The translations under genes and the position numbers were made by a program. A stretch of 64,000 bases of DNA, from contig NZ_JACLGO010000009.1 in assembly GCF_014219065.1 (NCBI RefSeq), positions 62,001 to 126,000 on the forward strand, written 5' to 3'. The notes below the pieces were generated by a model that did not search any database, was not told where the DNA came from, and saw only the letters and a program-made list of their open reading frames with translations. This document shows, in pieces, positions 31,258 through 54,458 of the stretch (the first letter of the stretch is position 1; each line of letters opens with the position of its first letter). This DNA comes from Halopseudomonas xiamenensis (GTDB lineage: Bacteria > Pseudomonadota > Gammaproteobacteria > Pseudomonadales > Pseudomonadaceae).

Positions 31258-31283
31258 ACATAAAAAACATTTTGATTTGTTTT
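31258..31283 (+). promoter_or_regulatory. Island operator element E (upstream of VOC-Lva-like operon)
   Basis: A 26-bp element matching copy D (54433-54458) at 20 of 26 positions. It contains AAAACA (31264-31269), an 8-bp spacer and TGTTTT (31278-31283), a perfect 6-bp inverted repeat. It lies 79 bp before the VOC start and reads towards it, as do the other four copies. Confidence 0.65.
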
Positions 31284-31362
31284 ATTATGAAAGGTACTCT
31301 GGATGCAAACCCGATACAGCTTTGTATTAACGGCAAAACAACAAGACATAAGGCCTGAACCC

Positions 31363-31908
31363 ATGACCACCATCCCGAACCGGCACCGTCAGTTGATTTC
31401 CCGCCTGGGCCGCATCATGCAGCTGGCCTGGGTACCCAGTGATTACGATGCGGCCCTGCGCCACTGGACCGAAACCATGGGCGTGGGGCCATTCTTCGAA
31501 ATGAACCACATCCAGGTGGACAGCTGCCATTACCGAGGGCAGCCGGTTGCTCTGGATTTTTCGGTCGCCATCGCCTACTGGGGCGACATGCAGATCGAAC
31601 TGGTTCGCCAGCATAACAATGCCCCCTCCATCTACCAGTCCTGGTTGGAGCAGGGGCGTGAAGGCCTGCACCACATCTGTCTGAAGATAGACAACATGGT
31701 CGAAGCCCGCGCGCTCTGTGCCGATGCCGATGCTGAAGTCATGCAGGAAGTCTGGCTTCCCGGCGGTGGCGAAGCTATCTACGTTGACCTGGGTGGCCTA
31801 ATGGTGGAAATGATCGATTTCCCCGAGGAAAGTCTGGCGGTATTTGCCGAAATGAAAACCGCCGCTGACAACTGGGATGGCAGTGCCCCCGTGCGGGTCC
31901 TTGGCTGA
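31363..31908 (+). CDS. VOC family protein (glyoxalase/methylmalonyl-CoA epimerase-like)
   Basis: A 181-residue vicinal-oxygen-chelate protein, first gene of the plus-strand catabolic operon. An upstream AAGG and the conserved start of the fold (GRIMQLAWVPSDYDAALRHW) support ATG 31363. The second half has GLHHICLKIDN and a final VEMIDF that supplies the metal-ligand glutamate. The family includes epimerases, isomerases and ring-cleavage enzymes. Next to the Lva-like genes, a role on a CoA thioester (for example epimerisation) is plausible but not shown. Confidence 0.75.
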   Translation: MTTIPNRHRQLISRLGRIMQLAWVPSDYDAALRHWTETMGVGPFFEMNHIQVDSCHYRGQPVALDFSVAIAYWGDMQIELVRQHNNAPSIYQSWLEQGREGLHHICLKIDNMVEARALCADADAEVMQEVWLPGGGEAIYVDLGGLMVEMIDFPEESLAVFAEMKTAADNWDGSAPVRVLG

Positions 31909-31926
31909 GGAATAAAAAGAGACGAT

Positions 31927-32988
31927 ATGAACGCGGATACCCTTCTCTCCAGTACAGCCGTGGCTCCATCGACGGTAGACCAGACATTGCCGGCCATTGC
32001 TGAATTCCTGAATAACCATCTGGCTGCCCAGCATACCCGGATCCGTCAGGCCCGCCGCCTGTCCGGCGGTGCCATTCAGGAAAACTGGTTGCTGGAGGTC
32101 GAACACCGGGGCGGCAGCCGACCCGGTGAACAACGCTGGGTGTTACGGACTGATGCACCCTCCAGCGTGGCCGTCAGCATGACCCGCGCCCAGGAGTTTG
32201 CAGTGCTGCGCTGCGCCTTCGACGCCGGCGCCAGAGTGCCTGAACCGCTGCTGTTGTGTTCAGACCTTGCCGTGCTGGGCCGTGAATTCTTCATCATGCA
32301 AGCGCTGGAGGGCACTGCCTTCGGCCCCAAGCTGACCCGTGACGGAGTCAGCGAGGAGCAACGCCCGGCCCTGTGCCGGGAACTCGGCATCAGCCTGGCC
32401 AACCTGCACCGTATCGCCCCACCGCACCCACAACTGGACTTCCTGTCCAGCCCGGTTGCCGACCATGCCCAGCACTGCATCGATACCTACCGCAGCTACC
32501 TGGACACCCTCAATGAAGGCTTTCCGGCCTTGGAATGGGGCTTACGCTGGTGCGAACTGAACCGCCCCGAGCCGCTGCCCCCATGCCTGCTGCACCGGGA
32601 CTACCGCACCGGCAACTACATGGTCGCCAACGGCCAGCTCAGCGGGATTCTCGACTGGGAGTTCGCCGGCTGGGGCGACCCACGGGAGGACATCGGCTGG
32701 TTCACCGCCCGCTGCTGGCGCTTCGCCGGGCCACAGCGTGAAGCTGGTGGCGTGGGCGAGCTGCAGGATTTTCTCGACGGCTACCACAGCATCAGTGACC
32801 TGCCCATGGACCGCGCCGCCCTGACCTATTGGCAGGTCATGGCGCACCTGCGCTGGGCCATCATCGCCCTGCAACAGTCCGAGCGCTACCTGAGCGGCGG
32901 CGAGGATTCGCTGGAGCTGGCCCTGACCGGGCGTATGCTGGCCGAACTGGAACAGGAGATTCTATTGCTGACCGGAGCCACACCATGA
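31927..32988 (+). CDS. LvaA-like acyl-CoA 4-hydroxy kinase (APH phosphotransferase family)
   Basis: A 353-residue aminoglycoside-phosphotransferase-fold kinase. The catalytic loop is LHRDYRTGN with Asp225 and Asn230, and the metal site follows in LDWEFAGWGDP. In P. putida the homologous LvaA phosphorylates the 4-hydroxyl of 4-hydroxyvaleryl-CoA; human ACAD10/ACAD11 carry the same kinase domain fused to a dehydrogenase. Here kinase, small DUF6285-type protein and dehydrogenase are consecutive genes in the lvaA-lvaB-lvaC order, and the stop overlaps the next start by 4 bp. The chain length of the substrate is unknown. Confidence is high for family and good for pathway class. Confidence 0.8.
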   Translation: MNADTLLSSTAVAPSTVDQTLPAIAEFLNNHLAAQHTRIRQARRLSGGAIQENWLLEVEHRGGSRPGEQRWVLRTDAPSSVAVSMTRAQEFAVLRCAFDAGARVPEPLLLCSDLAVLGREFFIMQALEGTAFGPKLTRDGVSEEQRPALCRELGISLANLHRIAPPHPQLDFLSSPVADHAQHCIDTYRSYLDTLNEGFPALEWGLRWCELNRPEPLPPCLLHRDYRTGNYMVANGQLSGILDWEFAGWGDPREDIGWFTARCWRFAGPQREAGGVGELQDFLDGYHSISDLPMDRAALTYWQVMAHLRWAIIALQQSERYLSGGEDSLELALTGRMLAELEQEILLLTGATP

Positions 32989-33338
32989 GTCGCCCCAAGG
33001 CCCCCGACCTGCTGACGACGGCTCGTCAGTTGCTGCTGAACGAGCTGCTGCCGGCCCTGCCCCACGAGTTGCACTACGAGGCACGGATGATCGCCAATGC
33101 CATGATCATCGCCGCCCGGGACCAGCAACAGGGCAGCAGCTGTGTGGCGCAAGAGTGCCGGCAGTTGCAGACACTGCTGGATGCACCGAATAACGGCGAT
33201 CTGGACGAACTGCGCAAACAGTTGGCCAGCGCCATCCGCCAGGGCCGGTTCGACCAGCACCCCGGATTGCACCGGGGTCTGCTGCAAATCAACCGCAACC
33301 AACTGGCCATCAACAGCCCCAAAGCGGTGCGCGACTGA
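32985..33338 (+). CDS. LvaB-like small partner protein (DUF6285)
   Basis: A 117-residue, largely helical protein starting ATG 32985, coupled to the kinase gene (ATGA). It has the DUF6285 pattern: LLTTARQLLLNELLPALP, YEARMIANAM, and a C-terminal HPGLHRGLL. In the P. putida levulinate operon a protein of this size and position (LvaB) is needed for LvaA kinase activity. I infer the same for this one. No catalytic residues are evident. Confidence 0.75.
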   Translation: MSRPKAPDLLTTARQLLLNELLPALPHELHYEARMIANAMIIAARDQQQGSSCVAQECRQLQTLLDAPNNGDLDELRKQLASAIRQGRFDQHPGLHRGLLQINRNQLAINSPKAVRD

Positions 33339-33365
33339 CGCGCCTGCGCTTACAGGAGAAGTACC

Positions 33366-34532
33366 ATGGATTTCAGTCTTGACCAGGAATTGCTGGAACT
33401 GCAGCAGCGCACCCGCGAGTTCATCGCCGAGCAGGTCATCCCCCTGGAATATGACAGCCGTCAGACGCCCCACGGCCCCAGCGATGAGCTGCGCAACGAA
33501 CTGGTCGAGCGCGCCCGCAACGCCGGCCTGCTGACTCCCCACGCCTCCCGCGAGCTGGGCGGTCTGGGCCTGAGCCACAGAGCCAAGGCGATCGTCTTTG
33601 AAGAGGCTGGCTATTCCCCACTGGGCCCGATCGCACTGCATATCCATGCCCCGGACGAAGGCAACATCCACATGCTGGAAGCCATTGCCAACGAGGCGCA
33701 GAAGGACCGCTGGCTCAAGCCCATGGTCGACGGCCGTATCCGCTCCTGCTTCGCCATGACAGAACCCAGCCCCGGTGCCGGTTCCGACCCATCCATGCTG
33801 GCGACCACCGCTGTGCGCGACGGTAATGACTACATCATCAACGGCCGCAAATGGTTCATCACCGGCGCCACCGGTGCCAGCGTCGCCATCATCATGGCCC
33901 GCACCGAAGACGGCGGCGCCACCATGTTCCTCAGCGACACCGACCAGCCCGGCTTCAAGGTCGAACGCATGATGGACTCGCTGGACAGTTGCTTCACCGG
34001 TGGCCATGGCGTGGTAGAGATCGACAACCTGCGCGTGCCGGCGCAAAACGTGCTGGGCGAAGTCGGCAAGGGCTTCCGCTATGCCCAGGTACGCCTGGCT
34101 CCGGCCCGCCTGACCCACTGCATGCGCTGGCTCGGTGCCGCTCGCCGCGCCCACGATATCGCCACCGACTATGCACGCACCCGCGAATCCTTCGGTCGTC
34201 CGCTGGGCGAGCACCAGGGCGTCGGCTTCATGCTGGCGGATAACGAGCTGGATCTGCACAGCACCCGGCTGGCGGTCTGGCATTGCGCCTGGGTACTGGA
34301 TCAGGGCGAACGTGGCAATCTCGAATCCAGCATGGCCAAGGTGCTCAGTTCAGAAGCCATCTGGCGTGTGGTTGACCGTGCCGTACAGATTCTCGGCGGA
34401 CAAGGCGTGACCGGTGAAAAGATCGTCGAGCGAATTTTCCGTGACGTACGTCCATTCCGTATCTACGATGGCCCCAGTGAAGTTCACCGTATGAGCATCG
34501 CCAGAAAACTGTTGGCCGCCCACCAGCACTGA
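33366..34532 (+). CDS. LvaC/ACAD11-like acyl-CoA dehydrogenase-fold enzyme
   Basis: A 388-residue flavoprotein. CFAMTEPSPGAGSDPS is the FAD-side loop and the C-terminal region has GQGVTGEKIVERIFRDVR. At the usual catalytic glutamate site (YEGTSEI in medium-chain enzymes) it has IYDGPSEVHR, with Asp368. From memory, ACAD10/11 also have an aspartate-glycine here, in an enzyme that eliminates phosphate from 4-phosphoacyl-CoA and rehydrates it to 3-hydroxyacyl-CoA. AGGAGAAGTACC precedes ATG 33366. The third gene of the Lva-like set, followed by a terminator. The reaction is inferred from context and this residue. Confidence 0.78.
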   Translation: MDFSLDQELLELQQRTREFIAEQVIPLEYDSRQTPHGPSDELRNELVERARNAGLLTPHASRELGGLGLSHRAKAIVFEEAGYSPLGPIALHIHAPDEGNIHMLEAIANEAQKDRWLKPMVDGRIRSCFAMTEPSPGAGSDPSMLATTAVRDGNDYIINGRKWFITGATGASVAIIMARTEDGGATMFLSDTDQPGFKVERMMDSLDSCFTGGHGVVEIDNLRVPAQNVLGEVGKGFRYAQVRLAPARLTHCMRWLGAARRAHDIATDYARTRESFGRPLGEHQGVGFMLADNELDLHSTRLAVWHCAWVLDQGERGNLESSMAKVLSSEAIWRVVDRAVQILGGQGVTGEKIVERIFRDVRPFRIYDGPSEVHRMSIARKLLAAHQH

Positions 34533-34581
34533 ACCGACTCCGTTACAACGGCCTCGCGAGTGCGGTGGGGCGGTTGGGTTC

Positions 34582-34617
34582 GGGCCACTGAGCGGTACTG
34601 TCAGTTGGCCCTTTTTT
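34582..34617 (+). terminator. Rho-independent terminator after the Lva-like genes
   Basis: GGGCCA (34582-34587) pairs with TGGCCC (about 34606-34611), extended by CTGA/TCAG, and is followed by six T (34612-34617). It separates the VOC-Lva transcript from the thiolase gene 28 bp further on; some read-through is likely. Confidence 0.82.
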
Positions 34618-34644
34618 ATTCGATTGACCCTGAAGGGAAGAGTC

Positions 34645-35832
34645 ATGACACAACGTCAGATCTATATTGTAGGAGCAGCCCGCACCGCCATCGGCAGTTT
34701 TGGCGGTAGCCTGAAAGACCAACCGCTGAGCGAAATTGCCACCACCGCAGTCAGTGCCGCCCTGAGCCGCTCCGGCGTCGCCCCGGAAGCGGTAGGCCAT
34801 GTGGTCATGGGTAACGTGATCCCCACCGAGCCGAAGGATGCGTACCTCAGCCGGGTGGCTGCCATAGATTCGGGTATTCCCAAGGAAACCCCTGCCTTCA
34901 ACGTCAACCGCCTGTGCGGCTCGGGTCTGCAGGCGATCATTTCCGCAGCGCAATCCATCCTGCTGGGTGATACCGACATTGCCATTGGCGGTGGTGCGGA
35001 AAGCATGAGCCGCGGCCCCTACCTCATGCCCGCCATGCGCTGGGGCGCCCGCCTCGGTGATGCCCAGGCAGTGGACTACATGAACGGCATCCTGCACGAC
35101 CCCTGGCAGCGCATCCACATGGGGGTTACCGCCGAGAACGTCGCCAAGCGCTACAACATCAGCCGCGAAGCCCAGGACGAACTGGCCCTGGAGAGCCAGC
35201 GTCGCGCCGCCCGCGCCCGGGCCAAGGGCTACTTCGCCGAGCAGATCGTGCCGGTGGAGATCCGTACCCGCAAGGGTGTGGTCAGCTTCGAGACCGATGA
35301 ACACATCCGTGAAGAGGTCAGCCTGGAACAACTGGCCGGCATGAAACCGGTATTCCAGCGCGACAACGGTAGCGTCACCCCCGGCAACGCCTCCGGCCTC
35401 AACGACGGCGCCGCCGCCCTGGTCCTGGCCGAGGAGCAAGCGGTCAAGCTGCACAACCTCAAGCCCCTGGCCCGCCTGGTCGGCTATGCCCACGCCGGGG
35501 TCGAGCCGGAATACATGGGTATCGGCCCGATCCCCGCCACACGCCTGGTACTGGAGCGCACCGGCCTGAGCCTGGCCGATATCGACGTCATCGAAGCCAA
35601 CGAAGCCTTCGCCGCCCAGGCCTGCGCCGTGGTACAGGAGCTGGGTCTGAACCCCGAGATCGTCAACCCCAACGGTTCCGGCATCTCCCTCGGCCACCCG
35701 GTCGGTGCTACCGGTGCCATCATCAGCACCAAGGCCATCTACGAACTGCAACGCACCGGTGGGCGCTACGCGCTGGTCACCATGTGCATCGGCGGCGGCC
35801 AGGGCATTGCCGCGATTTTCGAGCGCGTCTGA
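34645..35832 (+). CDS. Acetyl-CoA C-acyltransferase (thiolase)
   Basis: A 395-residue thiolase with all catalytic residues: Cys91 in NRLCGSGLQ, His351 in GHPVGATG and Cys381 in [11 protein letters not shown] 34645 has AAGGGAAG upstream; an in-frame ATG at 34624 is poorer. It is followed by a 3-hydroxyacyl-CoA dehydrogenase and an enoyl-CoA hydratase, making a complete beta-oxidation end. With the acetoacetyl-CoA synthetase it can turn acetoacetate into two acetyl-CoA; longer 3-oxoacyl-CoA is also possible. Confidence 0.9.
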
Positions 35833-35867
35833 TTCACAACCATCTGAATACAAGGAGAATAACAAGC

Positions 35868-36722
35868 ATGAGTATCCGCACCGTCGGCGTCATCGGCGCC
35901 GGAACCATGGGTAACGGCATCGCCCAGGTCTGCGCCGCAGCCGGGTTCCAGGTCACCCTGGTCGACATCAATGAAGAGGCATTACAGCGCGCCCTGCAGA
36001 CCATCGACCGCAGCCTCGAGCGCCTGATCCAGAAAGACAAGCTCGACACCGATGGCAAACAGCAGGCACTGGGCAATATCCGCACCAGCACTGCCCTGGC
36101 CGAGCTGGCCAGCGCCGACCTGGTGATCGAGGCCGCCTCCGAGGCCGAACCGGTCAAACTGGCACTGATCCGCCAGGTCGATGAGATAGTGTCCGAGCAG
36201 GCGATCATCGCCAGCAACACCTCATCCATTTCCATCACCCGTCTGGCCGCGGCCAGCCGCAGACCGGAACGGGTGATCGGTATGCACTTCTTCAACCCGG
36301 TGCCTGTCATGGCCCTGGTCGAGTTGATCGGCGGTCTGCAGACCAACGACACCACCCGTCAGGCTTCCACCGAGTTCGTCAGTGCCATTCACAAGACCGC
36401 CATCAGCGTGCGCAACAGTGCGGGCTTTGCGGTCAACCGCATCCTGGTGCCGATGATCAACGAAGCCGTATTCGTGCTGCAGGAAGGTATCGCCAGCGCT
36501 GAAGACATCGACCTGGGCATGCGCCTGGGCTGCAGCCACCCGATCGGCCCGCTGGCGCTGGCCGACCTGATCGGGCTGGATACCCTGCTGGCGGTGATGG
36601 ACGTGTTCTACACCAGCTTCAACGACAGCAAGTACCGCCCCGCCCCGCTGCTGCGGGAAATGGTCGAAGCAGGCTATCTGGGCCGCAAGAGCGGCCAGGG
36701 CTTCTACCACTACCCGGCTTGA
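35868..36722 (+). CDS. 3-hydroxyacyl-CoA dehydrogenase (3-hydroxybutyryl-CoA dehydrogenase type)
   Basis: A 284-residue NAD(P)-dependent enzyme. The N-terminal Rossmann motif is VGVIGAGTMGNGIAQ, and the catalytic histidine lies in MHFFNPVPVM. The C-terminal 3HCDH domain has GFAVNRILVPMINEA. AAGGAG lies seven bases before ATG 35868. Its place in an operon after the thiolase fits oxidation of the 3-hydroxyacyl-CoA made by the Lva-like module. Confidence 0.92.
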   Translation: MSIRTVGVIGAGTMGNGIAQVCAAAGFQVTLVDINEEALQRALQTIDRSLERLIQKDKLDTDGKQQALGNIRTSTALAELASADLVIEAASEAEPVKLALIRQVDEIVSEQAIIASNTSSISITRLAAASRRPERVIGMHFFNPVPVMALVELIGGLQTNDTTRQASTEFVSAIHKTAISVRNSAGFAVNRILVPMINEAVFVLQEGIASAEDIDLGMRLGCSHPIGPLALADLIGLDTLLAVMDVFYTSFNDSKYRPAPLLREMVEAGYLGRKSGQGFYHYPA

Positions 36723-36753
36723 GCCGGGTAGTCCCATGCGAGGAGAACATCAG

Positions 36754-37515
36754 ATGTCTGACCTGCCATTGATCGTCGGCGGCAGCGGCGCCATCCGCAC
36801 CCTGCGCTTCAATCGCCCTGCCTCACTCAATGCCATCGACAGCGCCATGGCCAGCGCCTTTCTGCAAGCCATCCAGGACGCGGTCGAAGACCCGGAGGTA
36901 CGGGTCATCGTCCTCAGCGGTGAGGGTCGCTCCTTCATGGCCGGCGGCGATATCAGCCAGTTCAGCCGCGACCCGGGAAGTATTCCCGAGGGGCTGATTG
37001 AGCCCATGAACCGGGCCATCCTGCTGTTCAGCAACAGCGACAAACTGGTGCTGGGCAGCGTACAGGGCCCGGTGGCCGGAGCCGGCATGAGCCTGGCGCT
37101 GGCCTGCGATCTACTGGTCGCAGCCGACAACACCCGCTTCAGTTTCGCTTACACCGCACTGGCGGTCAGTGGCGATCTGGGCATTAGCTGGAGCCTGCCG
37201 CGCCTGCTGGGCTTGCGTCAGGCCTTGGGGGTCGCTCTGCTCGGTGACAGCATCAAGGCCGATGAAGCGCAGCGTCTCGGCCTGGTCAACCGGGTAGTAG
37301 CCGCAGAACAACTGGCAGAACACACCCTGAATCTGGCCAACCAACTGACGGAACTACCGGTGCTGGCCAGCGCCAGCATCAAACGGCTGATGCAGGCCGC
37401 ACTGCAACAGGATCTGGGCAGCCAGCTGGCTGCCGAAAAACAGGCCTTCAGCCAGTGCATCGAGCAATCGGAATTCCACACCGCCGTTGCCGGATTCCTG
37501 GCCAAACGCAAGTAA
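36754..37515 (+). CDS. Enoyl-CoA hydratase/isomerase (PaaG-like)
   Basis: A 253-residue crotonase-fold protein with AGGAG before ATG 36754. The oxyanion-hole segments are FMAGGDISQF and GPVAGAGMSLALACDLL. At the second acidic site it has SGDLGISWSLPRLLG with Asp141, as in PaaG-type enoyl-CoA isomerases, and the first catalytic glutamate of hydratases (normally about 30 residues earlier) is not obvious. A double-bond isomerase is therefore at least as likely as a hydratase. Last gene of the thiolase operon. Confidence 0.8.
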   Translation: MSDLPLIVGGSGAIRTLRFNRPASLNAIDSAMASAFLQAIQDAVEDPEVRVIVLSGEGRSFMAGGDISQFSRDPGSIPEGLIEPMNRAILLFSNSDKLVLGSVQGPVAGAGMSLALACDLLVAADNTRFSFAYTALAVSGDLGISWSLPRLLGLRQALGVALLGDSIKADEAQRLGLVNRVVAAEQLAEHTLNLANQLTELPVLASASIKRLMQAALQQDLGSQLAAEKQAFSQCIEQSEFHTAVAGFLAKRK

Positions 37516-41143: not shown

Positions 41144-41165
41144 TATTGCTACCCCATGAGCAGGC

Positions 41166-43447: not shown

Positions 43448-43505
43448 ATGCTTTTCTCGGGCTGTCAGAACAGCCCCCGCCCGGTTGGCGGGCGGGGGAA
43501 ACGGA

Positions 43506-44900: not shown

Positions 44901-44938
44901 GCTCTTGCCCTCTTTATTTTTATAGGTAAGGCCAGTGG

Positions 44939-46087: not shown

Positions 46088-46536
46088 CACTGCTTCTCCT
46101 GTGGCGAACTGGCAGGGGCAAAGGCAAAGGTGCGCAGTACTCGTTCCTGGCTCCGGCCGTAATCCACCTCCACCAACTGCATGGGCATACCGATCCGCAA
46201 CTGCTGCGGGTCCGCACAGGTCAGGCGACTTTCCACCTTGAGGCCGCAGGGCAACTGGACATAACCCACCCCATAGGGTTGGAAGTCCTCGGCGGACTCA
46301 CCGCTGTTATAGGGGGACTTGGGCAGGAAGCCCTGCACCGTCCATGACCACAACTCACCGTGGTTGCCCAGCACCGACTCGCTGAGCTGCGTACCGCAGC
46401 AACGAGTGCAGCTGCTGGTCGCCGGAAAGTAATGCTCGCCGCATGACTGGCAGCGGCTGCCCAGCAATACCGGTCCCGCCTCACTCCGACCCAGCAGATG
46501 CCCGGTCACATGCTCCACTGATAGATTGCTGATCAT
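46087..46536 (-). CDS. DUF35 zinc-ribbon/OB-fold partner protein
   Basis: A 149-residue protein with a rubredoxin-like zinc ribbon (CQSCGEHYFPA and CTRCCG) followed by an OB-fold (GELWSWTVQGF, GYVQLPCGLKVE). DUF35 proteins bind acyl-CoA and partner thiolase-like proteins. First gene of an eight-gene minus-strand operon running to 37622. AGGATT precedes ATG 46536, and the shared island operator lies 20 bp upstream of the start. Confidence 0.85.
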   Translation of the reverse strand: MISNLSVEHVTGHLLGRSEAGPVLLGSRCQSCGEHYFPATSSCTRCCGTQLSESVLGNHGELWSWTVQGFLPKSPYNSGESAEDFQPYGVGYVQLPCGLKVESRLTCADPQQLRIGMPMQLVEVDYGRSQERVLRTFAFAPASSPQEKQ

Positions 46537-46556: not shown

Positions 46557-46582
46557 TAAACCAACCAGATTGTTTTTATTTA
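46557..46582 (-). promoter_or_regulatory. Island operator element A (upstream of DUF35 operon)
   Basis: On the minus strand it starts TAAATAAAAACAATCTGG and ends GGTTGGTTTA. The first 12 bases equal those of copies C and D. The inverted repeat has two mismatches. It lies 20 bp before the DUF35 start. Next to it the tetR 3' end forms a 6-bp GCAGCC/GGCTGC hairpin followed by TTGTTT, a weak terminator. Confidence 0.65.
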
Positions 46583-46598: not shown

Positions 46599-47318
46599 TC
46601 AAGTGGCTGCTGACTGCTTCTGCCGCGCCTGGTAGACCCGTTCGAACTGGGCCATGGCCGTTTCCACCAGCAAACCATGCAAGCGCTCCAGGCGGTCGCC
46701 CTGCAGGTAAGGGGCCGGATTCATCGCCACGCCCTGCAATGAGTGCATGATCAGATCACGTAACGCTTCGCCCACCTCGCGCAGATCCTCATCGGCCCAG
46801 ATCGGAAAGCGCTTCACCATGCTGAGCGACATCCGCTCGTCCAGCGAGTTTTCCAGCGGCCCCATGACTTCCTGTAGATATTCGTCGGTACGCGCACCGC
46901 GCACCAGTTCCTGGAAGGCCAGGAACGAAGGCTTCATGTAGTAACTCTGCAGTGTGGTAATGGTGTCACGCATATTGTCCGCTGTAGGAAAACTGCCCGA
47001 CTTTTGCGTCACCCCACGAATCGCCTCGTCATACTCCCTTACCCGGATATCCGTGATGTGCTCGGCAGCAGCATTGAACACCTCGGCTCGGGATTTGAAA
47101 TGATGAGTCATGGCACCCCGGGAAACCCCTGCCTGTTTGGCAATCTTTTCCGTGGTGGTCTGGCTATAGCCAATATTGACCAGACACTGCATGGTCGCAT
47201 CCAGAATATGCATGCGCATCAGATGGCTTTTTTCCGCCTGCCAACTGCCGTTCCCTGCCTTGGAGCGACGCGCAGGACGACGAATAGCTGGTCTGGTGGT
47301 TGCATTCTGGCTTTCCAT
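46599..47318 (-). CDS. TetR-family regulator 1 (candidate island repressor)
   Basis: A 239-residue protein from ATG 47318, with AAGGAAG upstream. After a basic, disordered leader (PAIRRPARRSKAG) comes the TetR helix-turn-helix, TTTEKIAKQAGVSRGAMTHHF, followed by a helical ligand domain. It stands in the middle of the island between the DUF35 operon and the 2-oxoacid dehydrogenase operon. Its promoter carries both a perfect palindrome and a copy of the shared element, so it is the best candidate for the regulon repressor and probably controls itself. The ligand may be an acyl-CoA intermediate. Confidence 0.83.
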   Translation of the reverse strand: MESQNATTRPAIRRPARRSKAGNGSWQAEKSHLMRMHILDATMQCLVNIGYSQTTTEKIAKQAGVSRGAMTHHFKSRAEVFNAAAEHITDIRVREYDEAIRGVTQKSGSFPTADNMRDTITTLQSYYMKPSFLAFQELVRGARTDEYLQEVMGPLENSLDERMSLSMVKRFPIWADEDLREVGEALRDLIMHSLQGVAMNPAPYLQGDRLERLHGLLVETAMAQFERVYQARQKQSAAT

Positions 47319-47362: not shown

Positions 47363-47377
47363 ACAAATTGCCTTTGC

Positions 47378-47415
47378 ATTATAGCGTAAAAACAAACAAA
47401 CAGTTCTTTTATTTA
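47378..47415 (-). promoter_or_regulatory. tetR promoter with island element B
   Basis: A perfect TATAAT on the minus strand (47378-47383) precedes the tetR start by about 60 bp. The region that would hold the -35 is occupied by the shared element (47388-47415), reading TAAATAAAAGAACTG and ending TTTGTTTTT. This copy is 28 bp long and is the most diverged. No standard -35 is visible. Confidence 0.55.
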
Positions 47416-47422
47416 TTTCAGG

Positions 47423-48199
47423 TTACGTCAGTTTGACCGAGTGCCCTGCATCAACAGTGATCACACTTCCACTCATATAGGTGGAGGCCGCGCTGGCCAG
47501 CAGCAACAGCGGGCCGTCCAGTTCTTCATGTCGCCCCAGACGCTGGATCGGCAACGCCGCAATCTCCCGCTGACCAGCCTCCGACTCGTAGAAGGGATTG
47601 GTCATTTCGCTGGGGAAATAGCCAGGGGCCAAGGCGTTGACGCGAATACCGTAGGGCATCAGGTCCAGAGCCATGTACTGGGTCATGTGGATCACCCCGC
47701 CCTTGGTGGTACCGTAGTTGATGAACTGCGGGCGAGCCAGATGACCAAGGATCGAGGCGATATTGATGATGCTGCCCGGCTTGCCTGCGGCAATAAGGCG
47801 CTTGGCCATTTCCTGGGCGACGTAGAACGGCCCGGACAGGTTGGCATCCAGCAGGGTAGTCCACTGTTCGCGGGTCATTTCCTCGAACGCCGTCGGGTTG
47901 GACAGGCCAGCATTATTGATCAGCACATCCACCGGACCGTAGTGCTGCTGAATGCTGGTAAAACCTTCCTTGATGCTCTCCGGGTCAGTCACATCCATAC
48001 TCAGGGCCAGCGCCTGACCACCCGCATCGCGAATACCCTGAGCTACCGACTCGACTGGCTCCAGACGACGGCCGACGCATACCACAGCCGCACCGGCGCG
48101 CGACAGAACACTGGCGAAGTGCTTGCCCAGACCACTGCCCGCGCCGGTTACCAGCGCCACTCGACCCGTAAGGGAAAACTGCTCAATAATGTCTTTCAT
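47423..48199 (-). CDS. Short-chain dehydrogenase/reductase
   Basis: A 258-residue classical SDR: cofactor motif TGAGSGLG at 18-25, NNAG at 95-98, and the active Tyr162/Lys166 in YGTTKGG. The acidic/basic pattern after strand 2 (CVGRRLE) suggests NADP or mixed use. Last gene of the E1-E2 operon. It probably oxidises a secondary alcohol to the ketone that the split 2-oxoacid dehydrogenase complex needs, but this is context only. Confidence 0.87.
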   Translation of the reverse strand: MKDIIEQFSLTGRVALVTGAGSGLGKHFASVLSRAGAAVVCVGRRLEPVESVAQGIRDAGGQALALSMDVTDPESIKEGFTSIQQHYGPVDVLINNAGLSNPTAFEEMTREQWTTLLDANLSGPFYVAQEMAKRLIAAGKPGSIINIASILGHLARPQFINYGTTKGGVIHMTQYMALDLMPYGIRVNALAPGYFPSEMTNPFYESEAGQREIAALPIQRLGRHEELDGPLLLLASAASTYMSGSVITVDAGHSVKLT

Positions 48200-48232
48200 T
48201 CATTTACTCTCTTATTATCTGCCCAGTGCCCT

Positions 48233-48988
48233 TCAGATCAACTGCTCCGGGTGTTCCAGTTGACTGGCATAGAAGCGGCAGAAGCGTGCCGCATCAGCAC
48301 CGTTGATCACTCGATGGTCATAACTCAGCGACAGGGGAATGAAGCGTCGGGTAGTAACTTCACTGTCCACCATCACCACCCGCTCGAACTCGCTGGTAAT
48401 GCCCAGGATGGCCACTTCCGGTGCATTGATGATCGGTGTAAACGAAGTGCCTCCGATGGAACCAAGCGAGCTGATGGTCATGCAGCCGCCGGACATTTCA
48501 GCGATCGGCAGGCCCTTGGTACGCGCCCGCTGGGCCTTGTCAATCAGCTCATCGGTCAGCTCGCTGAGCGATTTCTGGTCCGCATCGCGGATCACCGGTA
48601 CCAGCAGCCCCTTGTCGGTCTCCACCGCAATACCGACGTTGAAGTACTGCTTCATCACCAGCTGCTTGCCGTCGGCGGTCAGCGAGGAGTTGAATACCGG
48701 AAACGCCTTGAGGGTGTTGACCAGCGCCTTGACTAGGAACGGCAGCGGCGTCAGCTTGCGGCCGATTTCCCGGCCGTACTCCCGGCGGAAGCGGTTGAGC
48801 GCATCCACCGGCGCCTCATCGTTATGGGTGACATGGGGAATCTGCGCCCAGTTGCGCGCCAGAAAGGCCCCGGCATACTGCTGGTGGCGGGACACCTCGG
48901 CCAGCTCGAACTCTCCGAACTGGCTGAAGTCCACCTCCGGCATGGGCGGCAGCGTGGCCGGCCAGGTTTTGCCAGGTGCGCTGCTCAT
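48233..48988 (-). CDS. Stand-alone E2 acyltransferase core of a 2-oxoacid dehydrogenase
   Basis: A 251-residue catalytic E2 domain with no lipoyl or obvious peripheral-subunit-binding domain. The active histidine is His225 in SYDHRVINGADAARF. The N-terminal part (VDFSQFGEFELAEVSR, then NWAQIPHVTHNDEA) closely recalls the AceF pyruvate dehydrogenase core. The start overlaps the stop of the lipoyl-domain gene. Together with that gene it makes a split E2. The acyl group transferred is unknown. Confidence 0.88.
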   Translation of the reverse strand: MSSAPGKTWPATLPPMPEVDFSQFGEFELAEVSRHQQYAGAFLARNWAQIPHVTHNDEAPVDALNRFRREYGREIGRKLTPLPFLVKALVNTLKAFPVFNSSLTADGKQLVMKQYFNVGIAVETDKGLLVPVIRDADQKSLSELTDELIDKAQRARTKGLPIAEMSGGCMTISSLGSIGGTSFTPIINAPEVAILGITSEFERVVMVDSEVTTRRFIPLSLSYDHRVINGADAARFCRFYASQLEHPEQLI

Positions 48989-49218
48989 CAGATCAACTCC
49001 CCGATGACCGTGCCCACATCGTAGGTTTCGCCGGCTTCCTTGAGAATGCGCAGAATGCCGTCCGCCGGCGCCTCGATCTCCTGTACGGACTTCTCGCTTT
49101 CCAGTGCATACAGAATATCGCCCTTGCTCACCGCCGCCCCATCGGCCACCAACCACTCGGTCAACAGCGCCTCGTTCACGGAAAAGCCCAGTTTGGGAAG
49201 AAGAATTTCAGTAGCCAT
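48988..49218 (-). CDS. Free lipoyl-domain protein
   Basis: A 76-residue single biotinyl/lipoyl domain. The lipoylated lysine is Lys43 in ALESEKSVQEI. It should carry the acyl group between the E1 enzyme at 49240-51218 and the E2 core encoded next. Normally this domain is fused to E2; here it is a separate protein with a TGA/ATG overlap. The 21-bp gap to the E1 beta stop carries TAAATAAAAAACAG, a partial copy of the island element. Confidence 0.9.
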   Translation of the reverse strand: MATEILLPKLGFSVNEALLTEWLVADGAAVSKGDILYALESEKSVQEIEAPADGILRILKEAGETYDVGTVIGELI

Positions 49219-49239
49219 AAGATCATTCCATTCTGTTTT

Positions 49240-50235
49240 TTATTTAAGCACGTCAAGCACGGCATCGGTGATGCGCTGCCTGGTCGGGATGAATTCATCT
49301 TCCAGCGCCTTGGAAAAAGGTACCGGCGAGCGCGCCGCCCCCACCCGGGCAACCGGCGCCTTGAGCTGGCCAAACAGTTCCCTGTGGACCCGGGTGGCGA
49401 TTTCCGCACCAACGCCGAAGTCCACCTGCGCCTCATGGGCGACCACCAGCCGACCGGTTTTCGCTACCGAGTCGAGAATGGTATCCATGTCCAGCGGCGA
49501 GATGGTGCGCAGATCGATCACTTCCACCGAGATATCCTGCTTCTCCAGCTCCTGCGCTACCTGATTGACTTCCACCATGGTGCGGCTGTAGCTGACGATG
49601 GTCACATGGCTGCCCTGGCGTACCACCTTGGCCTTGCCCAGCGGGATGCGTTCACCCTGGACCGGCGCATCACCCATGGCGAAGTACAGTGGTAATCCCT
49701 CGATGAACAGGCAGGGGTCATCATCGAAGATGCAGGACAGCAGCAGGCCATAGGCATCTGCCGGATTCGACGGCGCCACCACCTTCATGCCGGCGGTGTG
49801 AGCAAACCAGGCCTCAAGATAGTCTGCGTGCTGGCCACCGGTACCGAAACCGGCCCCGGTCGTGGTGCGAATGGTCAGCGGCACATTGGTCTGCCCGCCG
49901 GTCATGAAGCGCAGCTTGGCCGCATGGTTGACCACCTGGTCCATGGCCACAGTGATGAAGTTCATCAGCATGATCTCGGCCACCGGACGCATGCCGGCCA
50001 GAGCAGCACCCACCGCTGCCCCCATGATCGCCTGCTCGGCAATCGGCGTGGACTTGACCCGGTCGGTACCGAACTTCTCCGACAGGCCAGCGGTGCACTT
50101 GAATACCCCACCACCCTCGCGATCGGCGATGTCTTCACCCAGCGCCAGCACGCTGTCGTCCTGCTCCATGGCATCATGCAGCGCCAGATTGATGGCCTGG
50201 GACATGTTCATGCGTTTTTTCTTCACTTCGTTCAT
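49240..50235 (-). CDS. 2-oxoacid/acetoin dehydrogenase E1 component, beta subunit
   Basis: A 331-residue transketolase pyrimidine-binding plus C-terminal domain protein. VLALGEDIADREGGGVF holds the conserved glutamate that activates thiamine diphosphate, and STPIAEQAIMGAAVGAAL follows. The start overlaps the alpha stop by 4 bp (ATGA) and AGGAG is present. The family cleaves 2-oxoacids, or acetoin and diketones in the Aco type. A dedicated E3 (lipoamide dehydrogenase) gene is not in the window. Confidence 0.92.
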   Translation of the reverse strand: MNEVKKKRMNMSQAINLALHDAMEQDDSVLALGEDIADREGGGVFKCTAGLSEKFGTDRVKSTPIAEQAIMGAAVGAALAGMRPVAEIMLMNFITVAMDQVVNHAAKLRFMTGGQTNVPLTIRTTTGAGFGTGGQHADYLEAWFAHTAGMKVVAPSNPADAYGLLLSCIFDDDPCLFIEGLPLYFAMGDAPVQGERIPLGKAKVVRQGSHVTIVSYSRTMVEVNQVAQELEKQDISVEVIDLRTISPLDMDTILDSVAKTGRLVVAHEAQVDFGVGAEIATRVHRELFGQLKAPVARVGAARSPVPFSKALEDEFIPTRQRITDAVLDVLK

Positions 50236-51218
50236 ACCCCGGTCTCCTCTGCATACACATCCCTGCCCAATTCCGACACATCGGGATACGGACTGCTCAG
50301 ACCGAACTCGACAGCTTCTTCGAACTGTGCGCGGTTCTCATCTTCGATCGCCTGCAACTGCTCAGCCGTTGCATGGCCTTCTGCAATCAACCACTGGTTG
50401 AACGCTGGCATGGGATCTGCCGCCACGGCGGCATCCATGATTTCCTTGGCGATGTAGTGCCCGTCATCACCGAGCAGGTGGCCGCGGAAGCGGAAGGTCT
50501 TGGCCTCCAGCAGAGTCGGCCCCTGGCCGTTGCGCGCACGTTCTATCGCTTCGCGGGCGGCGCAGTACATGTCCACCGCATCGTTGCCATTGCACTGGAT
50601 GCCATGCATACCGTAACCGATGGCGCGGTCAACGATATCCCGCGCGCCGGTACCGTATTCGTACTTGGTGTGCTCGGCGTAACCGTTGTTCTGGCAGACG
50701 AACACCACCGGCAGGTTCCACACCGAGGCCAGGTTCAACGCCTCGTGAAAGGCACCGATGTTGGAGGCGCCGTCACCGAAGTTGACCACAGTCACCTGGC
50801 CGCTTTTCTTCAACAGCGCAGCCCAGGCCAGGCCGTTGGCAATCGGCAGGCCCGAGCCGACGATACCGGTGGTCACCGGCAGTCCAGACGCCAAGTGGGT
50901 GATGTGCATCGGACCGCCCTTGCCTTTGCAGGTGCCGGTCGCCTTGCCCATGAATTCAGCCACGAATGGCTTGAGAGGGATGCCCTTGGCCAACTGGTCA
51001 TGGATGCCACGGTAGGTGGTAATAACGTAATCATCGGCCCGCAGGTTGACCGAGATGGCCGATGGCACCAGTTCCTGCCCACGTGGAGAGTAGTACGGCG
51101 AGGCAATCTGCCCGGCTTTGATCAGTTCGATGAAACGATCATCCGCAATCTTGATCAAGGTCGCTTTGCGATAGATCTCGAGCAGTACGGATGTGTCTGG
51201 AGACGTGAGCTCAGTCAT
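50232..51218 (-). CDS. 2-oxoacid/acetoin dehydrogenase E1 component, alpha subunit
   Basis: A 328-residue thiamine diphosphate-binding subunit. The cofactor motif starts GDGASNIGAFHEALN at residue 148 and ends with CQNNGYAEHT. YYSPRGQELVPSA and KGKGGPMHI are typical of AcoA/PdhA proteins. ATG 51218 has GAGG six bases upstream. First gene of the operon E1 alpha, E1 beta, lipoyl, E2, SDR. A shared island operator lies 52 bp upstream. The substrate is probably a ring-cleavage keto acid or diketone. Confidence 0.92.
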   Translation of the reverse strand: MTELTSPDTSVLLEIYRKATLIKIADDRFIELIKAGQIASPYYSPRGQELVPSAISVNLRADDYVITTYRGIHDQLAKGIPLKPFVAEFMGKATGTCKGKGGPMHITHLASGLPVTTGIVGSGLPIANGLAWAALLKKSGQVTVVNFGDGASNIGAFHEALNLASVWNLPVVFVCQNNGYAEHTKYEYGTGARDIVDRAIGYGMHGIQCNGNDAVDMYCAAREAIERARNGQGPTLLEAKTFRFRGHLLGDDGHYIAKEIMDAAVAADPMPAFNQWLIAEGHATAEQLQAIEDENRAQFEEAVEFGLSSPYPDVSELGRDVYAEETGV

Positions 51219-51270
51219 GAGTACCTCGCATGGGACACCTCTATTTATTGTTTTCCTGCCTTGCTTGTTT

Positions 51271-51296
51271 AAAACCAACAAGGTTGTTTTTATTTA
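51271..51296 (-). promoter_or_regulatory. Island operator element C (upstream of E1-E2 operon)
   Basis: On the minus strand it starts TAAATAAAAACAACC and ends TTGTTGGTTTT. The inverted repeat AAAACA/TGTTTT has one mismatch. 52 bp upstream of E1 alpha. A less ordered AT-rich stretch with GCTTGG/CCAAGC surrounds it. Confidence 0.65.
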
Positions 51297-51364
51297 TTCT
51301 AACCAAGCTGTTTTTAAACGGCAAGCTACAACTTGGTTATTTATCGAAGTCTGGAGAACGCCTT

Positions 51365-51802
51365 CTAACCAGCAAGAAACTCGGTCAGCTCGAAAACATT
51401 GCCATCAGGATCTCGACCATAGGTTGTTTTCGAGTCGCCAAAATCCTGTGGCAGACAATGGAAGGAAGCCCCCAACGTCACCAGACGTTCGCATACCTGC
51501 TCAATATCCGTCACATCGAAACAGAAATGGGTAATCCCGAAATGATGGACTGGCCGGGTTTCCTGCACCGGCGGCGACACAGGCTGCAAGAACTGGAACA
51601 GTTCCAGCCGCATGCCCCCAAGGCGCAGCATCATCGAGCGCGCCGATGATTCCGGCAGTCCCATGATATTGTTGATCCTGTCTTCCCCCGGCGGCCAGTC
51701 GACCGCACTCTCCTCGGCAAACCCGAAACCCTGCTGATAGAACCCGGCCAGCCGGTCCAGATTCGGCGTGGAGATGGCTACATGATGCACAGCATTGATC
51801 AT
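51365..51802 (-). CDS. VOC family protein 2
   Basis: A 145-residue vicinal-oxygen-chelate protein. VHHVAISTPNLDRLAGFY and HFGITHFCFDV supply the histidine ligands, and DPDGNVFELTEF the glutamate. AGGAAG precedes ATG 51802. It is the last gene of the operon that begins with two SnoaL-like genes and a Rieske oxygenase. A lyase, epimerase or single-domain ring-cleaving enzyme are all possible. Confidence 0.8.
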   Translation of the reverse strand: MINAVHHVAISTPNLDRLAGFYQQGFGFAEESAVDWPPGEDRINNIMGLPESSARSMMLRLGGMRLELFQFLQPVSPPVQETRPVHHFGITHFCFDVTDIEQVCERLVTLGASFHCLPQDFGDSKTTYGRDPDGNVFELTEFLAG

Positions 51803-51899
51803 CGAACTGTCTTCCTCTTATACGGCCGTTCCTGCGACCACTACAGGCCGGAGCCGGAGCAGCAATGGCGACCGCAGGCTCCGGCACAGCTGCCGCCAA

Positions 51900-53219
51900 T
51901 CAGACCCGACCGGCAATATAGTCGTTGATGACTTCGTGATAACGGCGCACCCGCGCCTCCTGACCAGACAGGTAGGAATCACTGTAACCACGGGAGTTCA
52001 GACCACGCTGTTGCGCTATCGCCACGCTCAGGTCCTGATCGGCGACAAAGCCGATAGACTGATCGCCATGCTTGAACACCTCATGGGCTGCTGGAGCAAG
52101 CGGATGCATGCCAACCGGTGTCTCCACCTCGGTTTGCCCTTCTTCGGCAATCACGAAGAACCAATGATCAAACAGGCACTTTTCCGGGTCGGTCGGGTGC
52201 GGCTGCGGACGCAAGATCTGGTAGCTCTCCGCCGCCATGGTGAAGGACATATTGGGAAACAGCGTGTAGTGGTAATAGTCGGTCAGCTGATCGTCATTCA
52301 GATTGTCATAATGCTGATACCCACGCTCGGCACCCAGCTTGCGCTTCTGCTGCTGTACTGCCAGACGAGCATCAGCCGCCCTACCGTCGAAGTCGTCCGG
52401 ATCCAGTTTCCAGGCACGCATGATACTGGCCAGCGGCTCCTGGATCTTCTTCGACTTGACCCCGGCCGCCGGCAGACAGCCTTTCATCAGCATGCGGCTG
52501 TGGCCATTGTTGAAGATTTCGAAATCGGTGTTCTGGTAGTCATCATCAATGAATGTGGCCAGCTCCTTGTGCAGCGCCTGCACGTGATAGGCCTCGTTGA
52601 AGTTGTCCTGGATAACCTTCCAGTTGCAATCAACCTCGGCGGTCATGTGCATGACCCGCACCATGCGCTCCATGGGGTAACATTCCAACTGGTCGGCAAC
52701 CACGCCCAGCGACTCACGTAGGGGCTTGGCCTGCGGATCCATGTTGATCCACACCAGCCCACCAAAGGTTTCACAAGGCAGTTCCTTGAGCCCCAGCTTG
52801 CCTACCGGATTCCCCTGAGGAAAATCATCCGTATCCTTGGCAATCAGCAGGCTGCCATTGAGGCCGTAACACCAGCTGTGGTAATTGCACACCAGGCGCC
52901 GGACCTTGGTCTGCTCGCACTCGACCATGCGGTTGCCACGGTGCTGACAGACGTTGTAGAAGGCGCGGATCCGTCCTTCGTCGTCGCGCACCATGAGAAT
53001 CGACTCCTTGCCGATCTCATGGGTAACCACGCAACCGGCATCGGGAAACTGCGCCTCGACCGCCCCCACCTGCCAGGTGCGGGTCCACATATGATCCCAC
53101 TCCTGTTGCATGAATTCGCGACTGTAATAGCGATCACCGGAGATCGGGTCGCCACGCAGGAACTCACCCTCCACCAGGGCAGCACGGGTTTTTTCGGCCA
53201 ACGACAGGGAAGCATTCAT
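51900..53219 (-). CDS. Rieske oxygenase alpha subunit 2
   Basis: A 439-residue protein with Rieske ligands Cys91, His93 (CQHRGN), Cys111 and His114 (CNYHSW) and iron ligands His212/His217 in DNFNEAYHVQALH. The start MNASLS has AGGAGGAG nine bases upstream. It shares architecture and the C-terminal ARVRRYHEVINDY with the Rieske protein at 54506, so the two are likely paralogues. Preceded by two SnoaL-like genes and followed by a VOC gene. Confidence 0.9.
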   Translation of the reverse strand: MNASLSLAEKTRAALVEGEFLRGDPISGDRYYSREFMQQEWDHMWTRTWQVGAVEAQFPDAGCVVTHEIGKESILMVRDDEGRIRAFYNVCQHRGNRMVECEQTKVRRLVCNYHSWCYGLNGSLLIAKDTDDFPQGNPVGKLGLKELPCETFGGLVWINMDPQAKPLRESLGVVADQLECYPMERMVRVMHMTAEVDCNWKVIQDNFNEAYHVQALHKELATFIDDDYQNTDFEIFNNGHSRMLMKGCLPAAGVKSKKIQEPLASIMRAWKLDPDDFDGRAADARLAVQQQKRKLGAERGYQHYDNLNDDQLTDYYHYTLFPNMSFTMAAESYQILRPQPHPTDPEKCLFDHWFFVIAEEGQTEVETPVGMHPLAPAAHEVFKHGDQSIGFVADQDLSVAIAQQRGLNSRGYSDSYLSGQEARVRRYHEVINDYIAGRV

Positions 53220-53285
53220 AATTGTTCAACTCCTCCTCGCTCCCGGCTCAATACGGAACCGGCAACGGGTTATCAGGCTGTTCAG

Positions 53286-53822
53286 TCAAAGCGGGTTAAT
53301 AAGGCGGTGCTGGTACACCAGGTCGGTTTCATCACGTTGCCCCTGCAGCTGATACTGGGCGAACTCACCATCTTCGCGACCGCTGTACGGCCAGGCAGTG
53401 TTCCAGTCGAGAATCAGGTCTCGGGAATACAGACGCCAGACACCATCGCGCTTCTCCCATACATCGAGGTAACGCATGTTGTCCGGACAATTGATCAGCT
53501 CTCCTTCCGGCGGCTGCATGGCAGCATTGCCGAGCATGTAGCTTTCTGCCGTAGCCCGGTTACCATCGAGCTGGATGCTCACCGTGGAAAACCGGTGCCA
53601 GCCCATCACCAGGTTGGCCTTGATAAAAGGAATATTCTGCTCGCAGAACTCCCAGGCGTTGCCGGCATATACGCCGAAGTCGACCACACCGTCTGCATGA
53701 AACACCGACTTGAGCAGTTCCAGGTCGCAGCGGTCTACTGCCTGGATATAGCGCGCCATCTGATCCTCGATGGCCTGAATATCAAGTGCCGCGGCCAATC
53801 TTCGCTTCAGCTCCATGGTCAT
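53286..53822 (-). CDS. SnoaL-like (NTF2-fold) protein A
   Basis: A 178-residue NTF2/SnoaL_4-type protein. IEDQMARYIQAVDRCDLELLKSVF and the DLILDWNTAWP segment are typical. The start overlaps the stop of protein B by 4 bp, so they are co-translated and may form a heteromer. SnoaL-fold proteins include cyclases, isomerases, dehydratases and oxygenase beta subunits. It directly precedes Rieske gene 2. No clear catalytic set could be assigned. Confidence 0.72.
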   Translation of the reverse strand: MTMELKRRLAAALDIQAIEDQMARYIQAVDRCDLELLKSVFHADGVVDFGVYAGNAWEFCEQNIPFIKANLVMGWHRFSTVSIQLDGNRATAESYMLGNAAMQPPEGELINCPDNMRYLDVWEKRDGVWRLYSRDLILDWNTAWPYSGREDGEFAQYQLQGQRDETDLVYQHRLINPL

Positions 53823-54337
53823 TCCCCCAGCAATGCATAGGCCGGATCATCCTTGCTGCGCTCGCCCCGCTTGAACAGGGCGAACATGCCCTCATCCGAA
53901 GCGGTTGCCGGATGATTCATGTTCCAGTCATGCACGAAGGTTCGCCGGGCAATCTTCCACTCGCCCTGCTCCCGGCGGTAGTGATCGAGGAAGCGCCCAC
54001 CGATCAGCCGGTCGGTTCTCTGCCCATCAGCAACCACAGTGCTGACATTGATGACGTACACCTCACCTCGGGCCTGATCGCCATCAACTTCGAAATATTC
54101 ATTGGAAAGGGAGGAAAAGGTCTTTTCCAGCGTGTCATCCGACGAGGTGCTGGCGATGACGAAGGGCTGCACATCACCCTGGTGACTGCCCCAGTCAATC
54201 TGCGCATCCCCGGTCCAGCAGGACACCATCAGACAGCGATCCATACGATCGAATGCCCGGGCAAACCGCGCGTTGAGCAGGCGCAATGCCTGTTTGGCTT
54301 CCACCTGTTCCAGAAGCTCCAAATCAGACTGCTGCAT
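53819..54337 (-). CDS. SnoaL-like (NTF2-fold) protein B
   Basis: A 172-residue protein (ATG 54337, GGAG seven bases upstream; ATG 54349 is a weaker alternative). EAKQALRLLNARFARAFDRMD and FVHDWNMNHP mark the SnoaL_4 fold, and it differs clearly from protein A. First gene of the operon B, A, Rieske 2, VOC. The shared island operator (54433-54458) lies 95 bp upstream. Confidence 0.72.
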   Translation of the reverse strand: MQQSDLELLEQVEAKQALRLLNARFARAFDRMDRCLMVSCWTGDAQIDWGSHQGDVQPFVIASTSSDDTLEKTFSSLSNEYFEVDGDQARGEVYVINVSTVVADGQRTDRLIGGRFLDHYRREQGEWKIARRTFVHDWNMNHPATASDEGMFALFKRGERSKDDPAYALLGE

Positions 54338-54432
54338 AAATATCTCCATACCTGATTATTTGATTTATACGGTACTGAAAGCCGGCCATCAGCTGGCCAG
54401 AAATGGATCAATCCACATTACCTTGCCAATTG

Positions 54433-54458
54433 AAAACAAGTCAAACTGTTTTTATTTA
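54433..54458 (-). promoter_or_regulatory. Island operator element D (upstream of SnoaL-Rieske 2 operon)
   Basis: On the minus strand it starts TAAATAAAAACAGTTTG and ends ACTTGTTTT. AAAACA-N8-TGTTTT is perfect (54433-54438 and 54447-54452 on the plus strand). It lies between the Rieske 3 stop and the SnoaL B start. Confidence 0.68.

Follow-up and report, generated by a model that had tools for sequence, protein, structure and literature searches.

A 24-bp palindrome repeated before the operons of a catabolic island in Halopseudomonas xiamenensis as the predicted operator of the island's TetR-family protein TetR1

A stretch of 64,000 nucleotides from Halopseudomonas xiamenensis (contig NZ_JACLGO010000009.1, hereafter the window) holds a catabolic island in which a similar short element stands before five genes on both strands, which raises the question of what the element does and which protein would read it. 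The window comprises positions 62001-126000 of C82, the island's 169-kb contig, in a genome of 4.28 Mb and 82 contigs. Judged from the sequence, the element is very probably the docking site of a repressor encoded in the same cluster. We consider it likely that the five copies, called A to E (Table 1), are operators of the TetR-family protein TetR1, which would repress the operons until a hydrophobic catabolite binds it. As the element is found before most operons, joint induction of much of the cluster is probable.

All five elements were found at the coordinates and on the strands reported in a preliminary description of the window, which had proposed one regulon. The likely ATG codons are at 31363, 46536, 47318, 51218, and 54349 or 54337, which bears out the distance of 20-95 bp to the gene start; a TTG-started open reading frame (ORF) extending into D is not likely to mark the E1-alpha start. 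Three of the minus-strand copies, B, D and E, do contain a common sequence, TAAATAAAAACA, unlike copy C, which starts with TAAATAAAAGAA. The term near-identical fits B and D (23 of 26 bases) but not C, which matches the others at 13-17 of 26 ungapped, and the 20 of 26 bases said to be shared by A and D are in fact shared by A and E, as A and D agree at only 16 of 26. The perfect AAAACA-N8-TGTTTT ascribed to D and E is present in E, while D has one mismatch; the other perfect copy is A, for which two mismatches had been reported. Copy B has two mismatches, and C has the single mismatch claimed for it, but with a best fit that needs a spacer of 10 instead of 8. AAAACA-N8-TGTTTT was rejected as the sole axis and a 24-bp form adopted because the shorter motif does not describe C and the best axis of non-Pseudomonas sites is 2 bp away. 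The partial copy at 49225-49240 exists as described, and three close relatives (L011-L013) have it too. It is absent from the 24-bp model matches and is likely leader sequence, so we disfavour it as an operator despite its score of 26 in a first, looser 32-bp model.

The element is rare both in the window and in the genome. In leave-one-out scans, A, B, D and E each ranked fourth of about 128,000 window positions, right behind the other three. In a 24-bp symmetric model, whose matrix was refined on the window and 20 related loci, the five elements are the top five in the window with scores of 27-34, and they carry 2-5 mismatches to the bare consensus AAAACMAACA-N4-TGTTKGTTTT. The next match, with a score of 18 at 60446, is inside the ThuA reading frame and was not counted; the related locus L015 has a similar match at the ThuA start. 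Genome-wide, exact AAAACA-N8-TGTTTT is found only as A and E (reversed control 0), a 20-bp degenerate core without mismatches only as A, B, D and E, and the 26-bp consensus with at most three mismatches only as B, D and E. The 24-bp consensus AWAAMMAACANNNNTGTTKGTTTT with at most three mismatches gives eight rows at six places, all on C82 (control 0); these are A, B, C, D and two new places, with E below the threshold. When up to two mismatches are allowed, the 20-bp core matches 17 places, seven of them on C82, and since the reversed-pattern control gives eight, most of the mismatched matches elsewhere are background. Exact and 24-bp matches are confined to C82, and unrelated promoters do not carry the motif at a comparable rate.

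The sites are also conserved in related clusters. At E <= 0.001, 169 proteins are related to TetR1 (the best 120 of 169 being listed), and one scan of named genomes provided 36 loci, of which 20 are close (L011-L030, 40-93% best-segment identity to TetR1). The close loci are from Pseudomonas, Zoogloea, Thauera linaloolentis, Pseudoduganella, a proteobacterial metagenome-assembled genome (MAG) and a Vitreoscilla MAG; three pairs share a contig (L016/L029, L023/L026, L024/L025) and some Zoogloea loci are near-duplicates. The order E1a-E1b-E2-SDR-TetR1-(DUF35-Ltp)-Rieske1-ACAD1 (ACAD, acyl-CoA dehydrogenase) is kept in 16 of the 20, whole or in part as contigs allow. DUF35-Ltp is missing there from L025 and L026 and is about 9 kb off in L018, and L023, L024 and L029 differ. 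When the matrix is derived solely from A, B, D and E, the 390 kb surrounding the 20 TetR1 relatives contain 41 sites that exceed 22 bits, compared to a mean of 0.07 and a maximum of 2 for 60 column-permuted matrices in the same 390 kb, and to two sites in 16 loci around distant TetRs (275 kb). At 20 bits, the numbers are 50 observed, a permuted mean of 0.37 (one matrix reached 10) and four in the distant loci.

Placement was assessed gene by gene, with a 24-bp matrix score of at least 20 within 300 bp upstream of the gene. A site precedes E1-alpha in 15 of 16 related loci (L017 has no upstream sequence for this gene), DUF35 in 14 of 15 and SnoaLa in all five, and in the two misses (L012 E1-alpha, L027 DUF35) the site overlaps the start of the tblastn match. 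Operon-internal genes have no upstream site (SDR1 0/17, E1b 0/17, Rieske1 0/16, ACAD1 0/16, Ltp 0/15, ligase 0/15). Among orthologous promoters chosen for carrying a site (A 5, B 8, D 6, E 5 sequences), pairwise identity of the 20-bp core is 0.83-1.00; it is 0.48-0.71 in the six bases before the core and 0.22-0.45 in the flanks, except for 0.74 in the 20 bp after A. In this comparison, non-Pseudomonas loci were left out of the B and D groups, L015 and L030 (different register) out of D, and L029 out of E. The operator A core is identical in five genomes. Collectively, the genome-wide restriction and the retention of sites in Pseudomonas, Zoogloea, Thauera, Pseudoduganella and the Vitreoscilla MAG support the one-regulon proposal.

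The distribution across 58 genomes follows that of TetR1 within the genus. TetR1 (E <= 1e-20) is found in four of 37 same-genus genomes, the window's own included, and the fifth match is a 35% relative in another genus; plasmid records gave no TetR1 relative at E 1e-30. All four same-genus genomes with TetR1 contain the exact 21-bp core in 2-4 copies, and only one of the 33 without TetR1 (G008) does so, as a single copy 32 bp from a contig end. G008 has an Ltp fragment 95% identical to the island's on a short contig (its best E1b match is only 44%) and thus probably carries the island in a fragmented assembly. Within the genus, the exact core is therefore nearly restricted to island-bearing genomes. 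In P. profundi, an exact E-type copy is found on another contig, before SDR, SnoaL and DUF1329 genes. The gene opposite ORF L077:1-1221 (+) was profile-scanned over 412 of 417 amino acids. A separate sequence, AAAAACAGTGATAGTGGTTTT, is identical in same-genus genomes G007 (three times), G015 and G020 and is probably part of a repeat unrelated to the TetR1 regulon.

TetR1 has the features of a regulator that could read such sites. Its N-terminal TetR_N helix-turn-helix domain scores 54.2 bits against a cut-off of 24 (E 1.2e-14), and the AlphaFold2 model (pLDDT 88.9, helices only) predicts a TetR fold with confidence. The 50 PDB matches listed by Foldseek look like TetR-type regulators (TMq 0.38-0.59), and KstR is among the matches listed. 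VSRGAMTHHF, residues 66-75 in the recognition region, shows no variation when TetR1 is aligned with 39 sequences chosen from the best 120 of 169 relatives (48-90% identity). Palindromic candidate operators are present at the target promoters, and a copy before the regulator's own gene is found in the window and in six of the 20 related loci.

Whether TetR1 would repress or activate can be approached through the predicted promoters. TTGCCG-17-TAGAAT ends where element D begins, and TTGTCA/TTGTGC-17-TATACT is placed similarly in Zoogloea-type loci (L016, L018-L020) and Thauera. A and E have a -35-like hexamer inside the operator and a TACTCT or TAATGT/TATGGT box 17-18 nt further, a layout that the promoter script scored for just two E-group members, L011 and L013, and that was read by eye for the rest. 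Element B comes after a hairpin (by eye). The predicted -10 is 16-23 bp before the operator centre at D-type sites and 24 bp after it at two E-type sites. Such operators, always close to the promoter yet not in one fixed place, are more in line with steric repression than with activation. A role for TetR1 as mainly an activator, or as a dual regulator, is thus improbable; the conserved A/T tracts upstream of the A and E -35-like boxes could resemble an activator site or UP element, but activators usually need fixed positions, and here the position shifts from on the -35 (A, E) to downstream of the -10 (D, Zoogloea and Thauera).

It is similarly improbable that another regulator uses the sites, either TetR2 or one from outside the island. 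A second TetR gene is indeed present at 56453-57334, and the compared loci were chosen by TetR1. However, the stretches retrieved from P. sp. MYb185 (G036) and P. profundi (G023), which both keep sites, gave no TetR2, Rieske3 or SnoaLc, and TetR2 has its own palindrome, which disfavours TetR2 and makes TetR1 the better candidate. In Pseudoduganella L024 the 10 kb before tetR1 are without E1-E2 genes, yet sites flank tetR1; L023 is similar but cut by a contig end. The different palindrome described beside TetR2 at the SnoaLc-Rieske3 unit is TTAGAA-N5-TTCTAA, with a counterpart, TTAGAAT-N3-ATTCTAA, at 837-853 of L012 and none in the window at arm length 7. It is probably TetR2's own operator and outside the TetR1 regulon. 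A shorter palindrome of related form, with a AGAACGTTCT or GTAC centre and arms like AAACA/TGTTT, occurs in loci around distant TetRs (L033 9834, L041 9841, L032 9857, L036 7513); in L032, L033 and L041 it is within 200 bp before the TetR match. Finally, it is very unlikely that the elements are merely promoter sequences (-35/UP-like) common to these genes, or A/T-rich repeats, that no regulator of their own would read. They are A/T-rich in a 62% GC window and A and E hold -35-like hexamers, but permuted matrices of the same composition find almost no matches, exact palindromes are confined to the island genome-wide, and identity drops to 0.48-0.71 in the six bases before the core and mostly below 0.45 beyond.

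In the model we favour, TetR1 would be a one-component repressor. Without inducer, TetR1 dimers would occupy the approximately 24-bp A/C-rich palindrome, which would overlap the -35 region (A, E) or follow the -10 across the predicted transcription start (D), and RNA polymerase would be blocked at the five window promoters and about six further along the contig. At C, TetR1 would also repress its own gene. TetR1 would be released on binding a hydrophobic catabolite formed from the substrate, such as a CoA ester, and transport proteins, Rieske oxygenases, thioester chemistry and beta-oxidation would be turned on together.

Several observations weigh against this model. The exact 21-bp core is present in two of 21 genomes of other genera (G047, G051), and with one mismatch allowed it matches 11 of the 33 same-genus genomes without TetR1 (including G008) and 18 of the 21 from other genera, i.e., one-mismatch matches are at background level. 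The 24-bp matrix is trained on loci that it is tested on, while the matrix from A, B, D and E was not. Additionally, the 20 loci are partly redundant and were picked for holding TetR1, so the linkage of sites to TetR1 is partly built in. A site precedes tetR1 in only six of these loci, C itself is divergent, and the one VOC relative testable in them (L028) has no upstream site. The promoter boxes agree only weakly with the consensus (5 found, 4.0 expected), and the promoter script gave no box for E in the window, L012 and L030 (E group) or L083 and L084 (A group), and no convincing one for B. Last, the window scan found no 24-bp-model site at the SnoaLc-Rieske3 unit, and the regulon is therefore not the whole island.

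Table 1. Predicted operators, proposed operons and further features of the window (HCDH, 3-hydroxyacyl-CoA dehydrogenase; ECH, enoyl-CoA hydratase; co-transcription is inferred for all four proposed operons)
Feature	Position	Strand	Remarks
Operator A (predicted)	31260..31283	+	heads VOC-APH-ACAD-thiolase-HCDH-ECH operon; -35-like TTGATT within, TACTCT 17 nt downstream (by eye)
Operator B (predicted)	46557..46580	-	about 20 bp before DUF35-Ltp-Rieske1-ACAD1-ACAD2-ligase operon; promoter boxes not clear
Operator C (predicted)	47389..47412	-	before tetR1; variant copy; TATAAT 5 bp downstream of operator C
Operator D (predicted)	51271..51294	-	before E1a-E1b-lipoyl-E2-SDR operon; directly downstream of TTGCCG-17-TAGAAT
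Operator E (predicted)	54433..54456	-	before SnoaLa-SnoaLb-Rieske2 operon; -35-like TTGACT within
TetR1, proposed repressor	46599..47318	-	PF00440
Partial copy	49225..49240	-	left half only, without right half; between E1-beta stop and small lipoyl ORF start
Proposed operon A	31363..37515	+	VOC, APH-type kinase, acyl-CoA dehydrogenase, thiolase, 3-hydroxyacyl-CoA dehydrogenase, enoyl-CoA hydratase
Proposed operon B	39497..46536	-	DUF35/ChsH2-like, Ltp-like thiolase, Rieske oxygenase, two acyl-CoA dehydrogenases, acyl-CoA ligase
Proposed operon D	47423..51218	-	SDR, lipoyl-less E2, lipoyl protein, E1-beta, E1-alpha
Proposed operon E	51900..54349	-	Rieske2, two SnoaL_4 proteins
TetR2's separate palindrome TTAGAA-N5-TTCTAA	56414..56430		between TetR2 and SnoaLc; by eye
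MMPL/HAE3-like RND transporter	60558..62996	-	perhaps in operon headed by operator C82:126279-126302

The regulon is probably larger than the window, with about 11 proposed sites over 56 kb. Six likely operators are predicted past the window, at C82:126279, 126437, 129547, 142389, 148382 and 149578 (24-bp matrix scores 22.4-28.1), in a matrix scan that covered C82:125001-165000 with no separate permuted control; C82:1-62000 was covered by pattern searches alone. From each site an ORF with a mechanically called start reads away at a distance of about 43-94 bp, and these ORFs encode, in site order, YCF48-like (RND gene next), SnoaL/PhyH, DUF1329, Rieske, DUF1302 and SDR proteins. Pattern searches find 126279 and 129547 again with AWAAMMAACANNNNTGTTKGTTTT, and 126437, 129547 and 149578 with the 20-bp core, while 142389 and 148382 come from the 24-bp matrix only. 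The site at 126437 has a counterpart in P. saliphila (L086).

Within the window, VOC2 (51365-51802) may be a further member of operon E. The E2 of operon D is split into a stand-alone lipoyl protein of 76 amino acids (PF00364, 48988-49218, minus strand) and a lipoyl-less acyltransferase ORF (48233-49156, minus strand), and L011 shows the same split. In operon A, the APH-type kinase adjoins the acyl-CoA dehydrogenase (31927-34532), an arrangement we take to be like the Lva/ACAD10-11 pair acting on 4-hydroxyacyl-CoA. By analogy, this likeness hints at a pathway yielding 4-hydroxy acids.

The symmetry of the operator appears to differ between groups. In an axis test on 39 of 50 sites, with near-duplicates removed, the 17 non-Pseudomonas sites show palindromy of 0.51, 0.62 and 0.54 at axes -4, -2 and 0, and the 22 Pseudomonas sites mainly at axis 0 (0.56 vs 0.44 at -2). 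The operator form, 24 bp with two or three possible dyad axes, differs from AAAACA-N8-TGTTTT. Occupancy by one dimer or by two would both be compatible with this test, and both classes are known at this operator length. More speculatively, and with considerable doubt, one transferable regulon might be built on a single TetR whose recognition helix is conserved and whose operator spans 24 bp. This regulon would have moved as a unit between Beta- and Gammaproteobacteria, with the same operons still headed by operators where regulator identity is 50-60%. It would govern transport and degradation of a hydrophobic cyclic substrate via an unusual route, Rieske oxygenation followed by thiamine/lipoate cleavage by E1-E2 with a separate lipoyl protein, and its operator would have changed in symmetry from genus to genus, a three-axis and possibly two-dimer form giving way to one that is one-dimer-like.

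The catabolic cluster becomes one proposed regulon with a searchable operator, by which genes can be tentatively assigned to the pathway, among them transport genes beyond the window. NCBIfam, PDB sequence searches (Rieske1, Rieske2) and literature searches did not name the substrate; the transport genes resembling AmeABCD, compared below, together with the DUF35/Ltp pair lead us to guess at a terpenoid- or steroid-like, alicyclic compound. TetR1 could be used as a sensor for finding it, since any compound that frees TetR1 from DNA is expected to be a metabolite of this pathway.

TetR repressors whose palindrome recurs across a catabolic cluster are a known kind, of which the present one is a new case; among the matches listed from the open-licence literature, searched without the operator letters as a term, we recognised no report of this regulator or gene order. 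KstR, the cholesterol repressor (PDB 5fmp, 3mnl; Foldseek), shares the TetR fold at 17-18% identity in the alignment. It controls a large catabolic regulon with its operator repeated before many operons, and the operator sequence differs from that of TetR1. AcrR, NalD and TtgR are among the best PDB sequence matches, with a match limited to the DNA-binding region (about residues 28-89), and control multidrug efflux, not catabolism. Their operators are of similar length, with ACAAACA/TGTTTGT-like halves.

By analogy, the closest studied parallel that we recognised is EdcR of estradiol catabolism in Caenibius tardaugens. EdcR is reported to be a TetR-family repressor in a catabolic cluster whose conserved palindrome overlaps the -10 of the operon promoters and recurs in weaker form upstream of the EdcR gene; it is induced by the substrate and by an early intermediate, and repression was shown genetically (PMC8700777). 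EdcR and TetR1 thus have in common the family, the catabolic cluster, the repeated palindrome and the own-gene copy. However, the reported EdcR operator, TnnCnnTACnAnTnGTAnnGnnA, differs from that of TetR1 and by inspection is not matched by the five elements, and EdcR controls two operons compared to about 11 proposed sites here, where repression is inferred. Operator length is similar in EilR, for which a 24-bp palindrome (eilO) bound by one dimer is reported (PMC6127294), and in CprB and QacR, for which a 22-28-bp operator bound by two dimers is described (PMC4150764), while the operator sequences are different.

For transport, a possible parallel is AmeABCD on the monoterpene island of Castellaniella defragrans, reported to have components of the DUF1302, DUF1329, PSII-assembly-like (YCF48) and RND families and a cassette composition and organization conserved in the lineage (PMC6394551). 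The same broad families are encoded on C82, with DUF1302, DUF1329, YCF48-like and MMPL proteins above Pfam cut-offs and the HAE3 model at 162.9 against a cut-off of 351.9. However, AmeABCD is reported as one cassette, whereas the C82 genes are in three places (window 60558-64000 on to C82:126236, C82:128110-129486 and C82:146662-148338), each with a proposed TetR1 operator.

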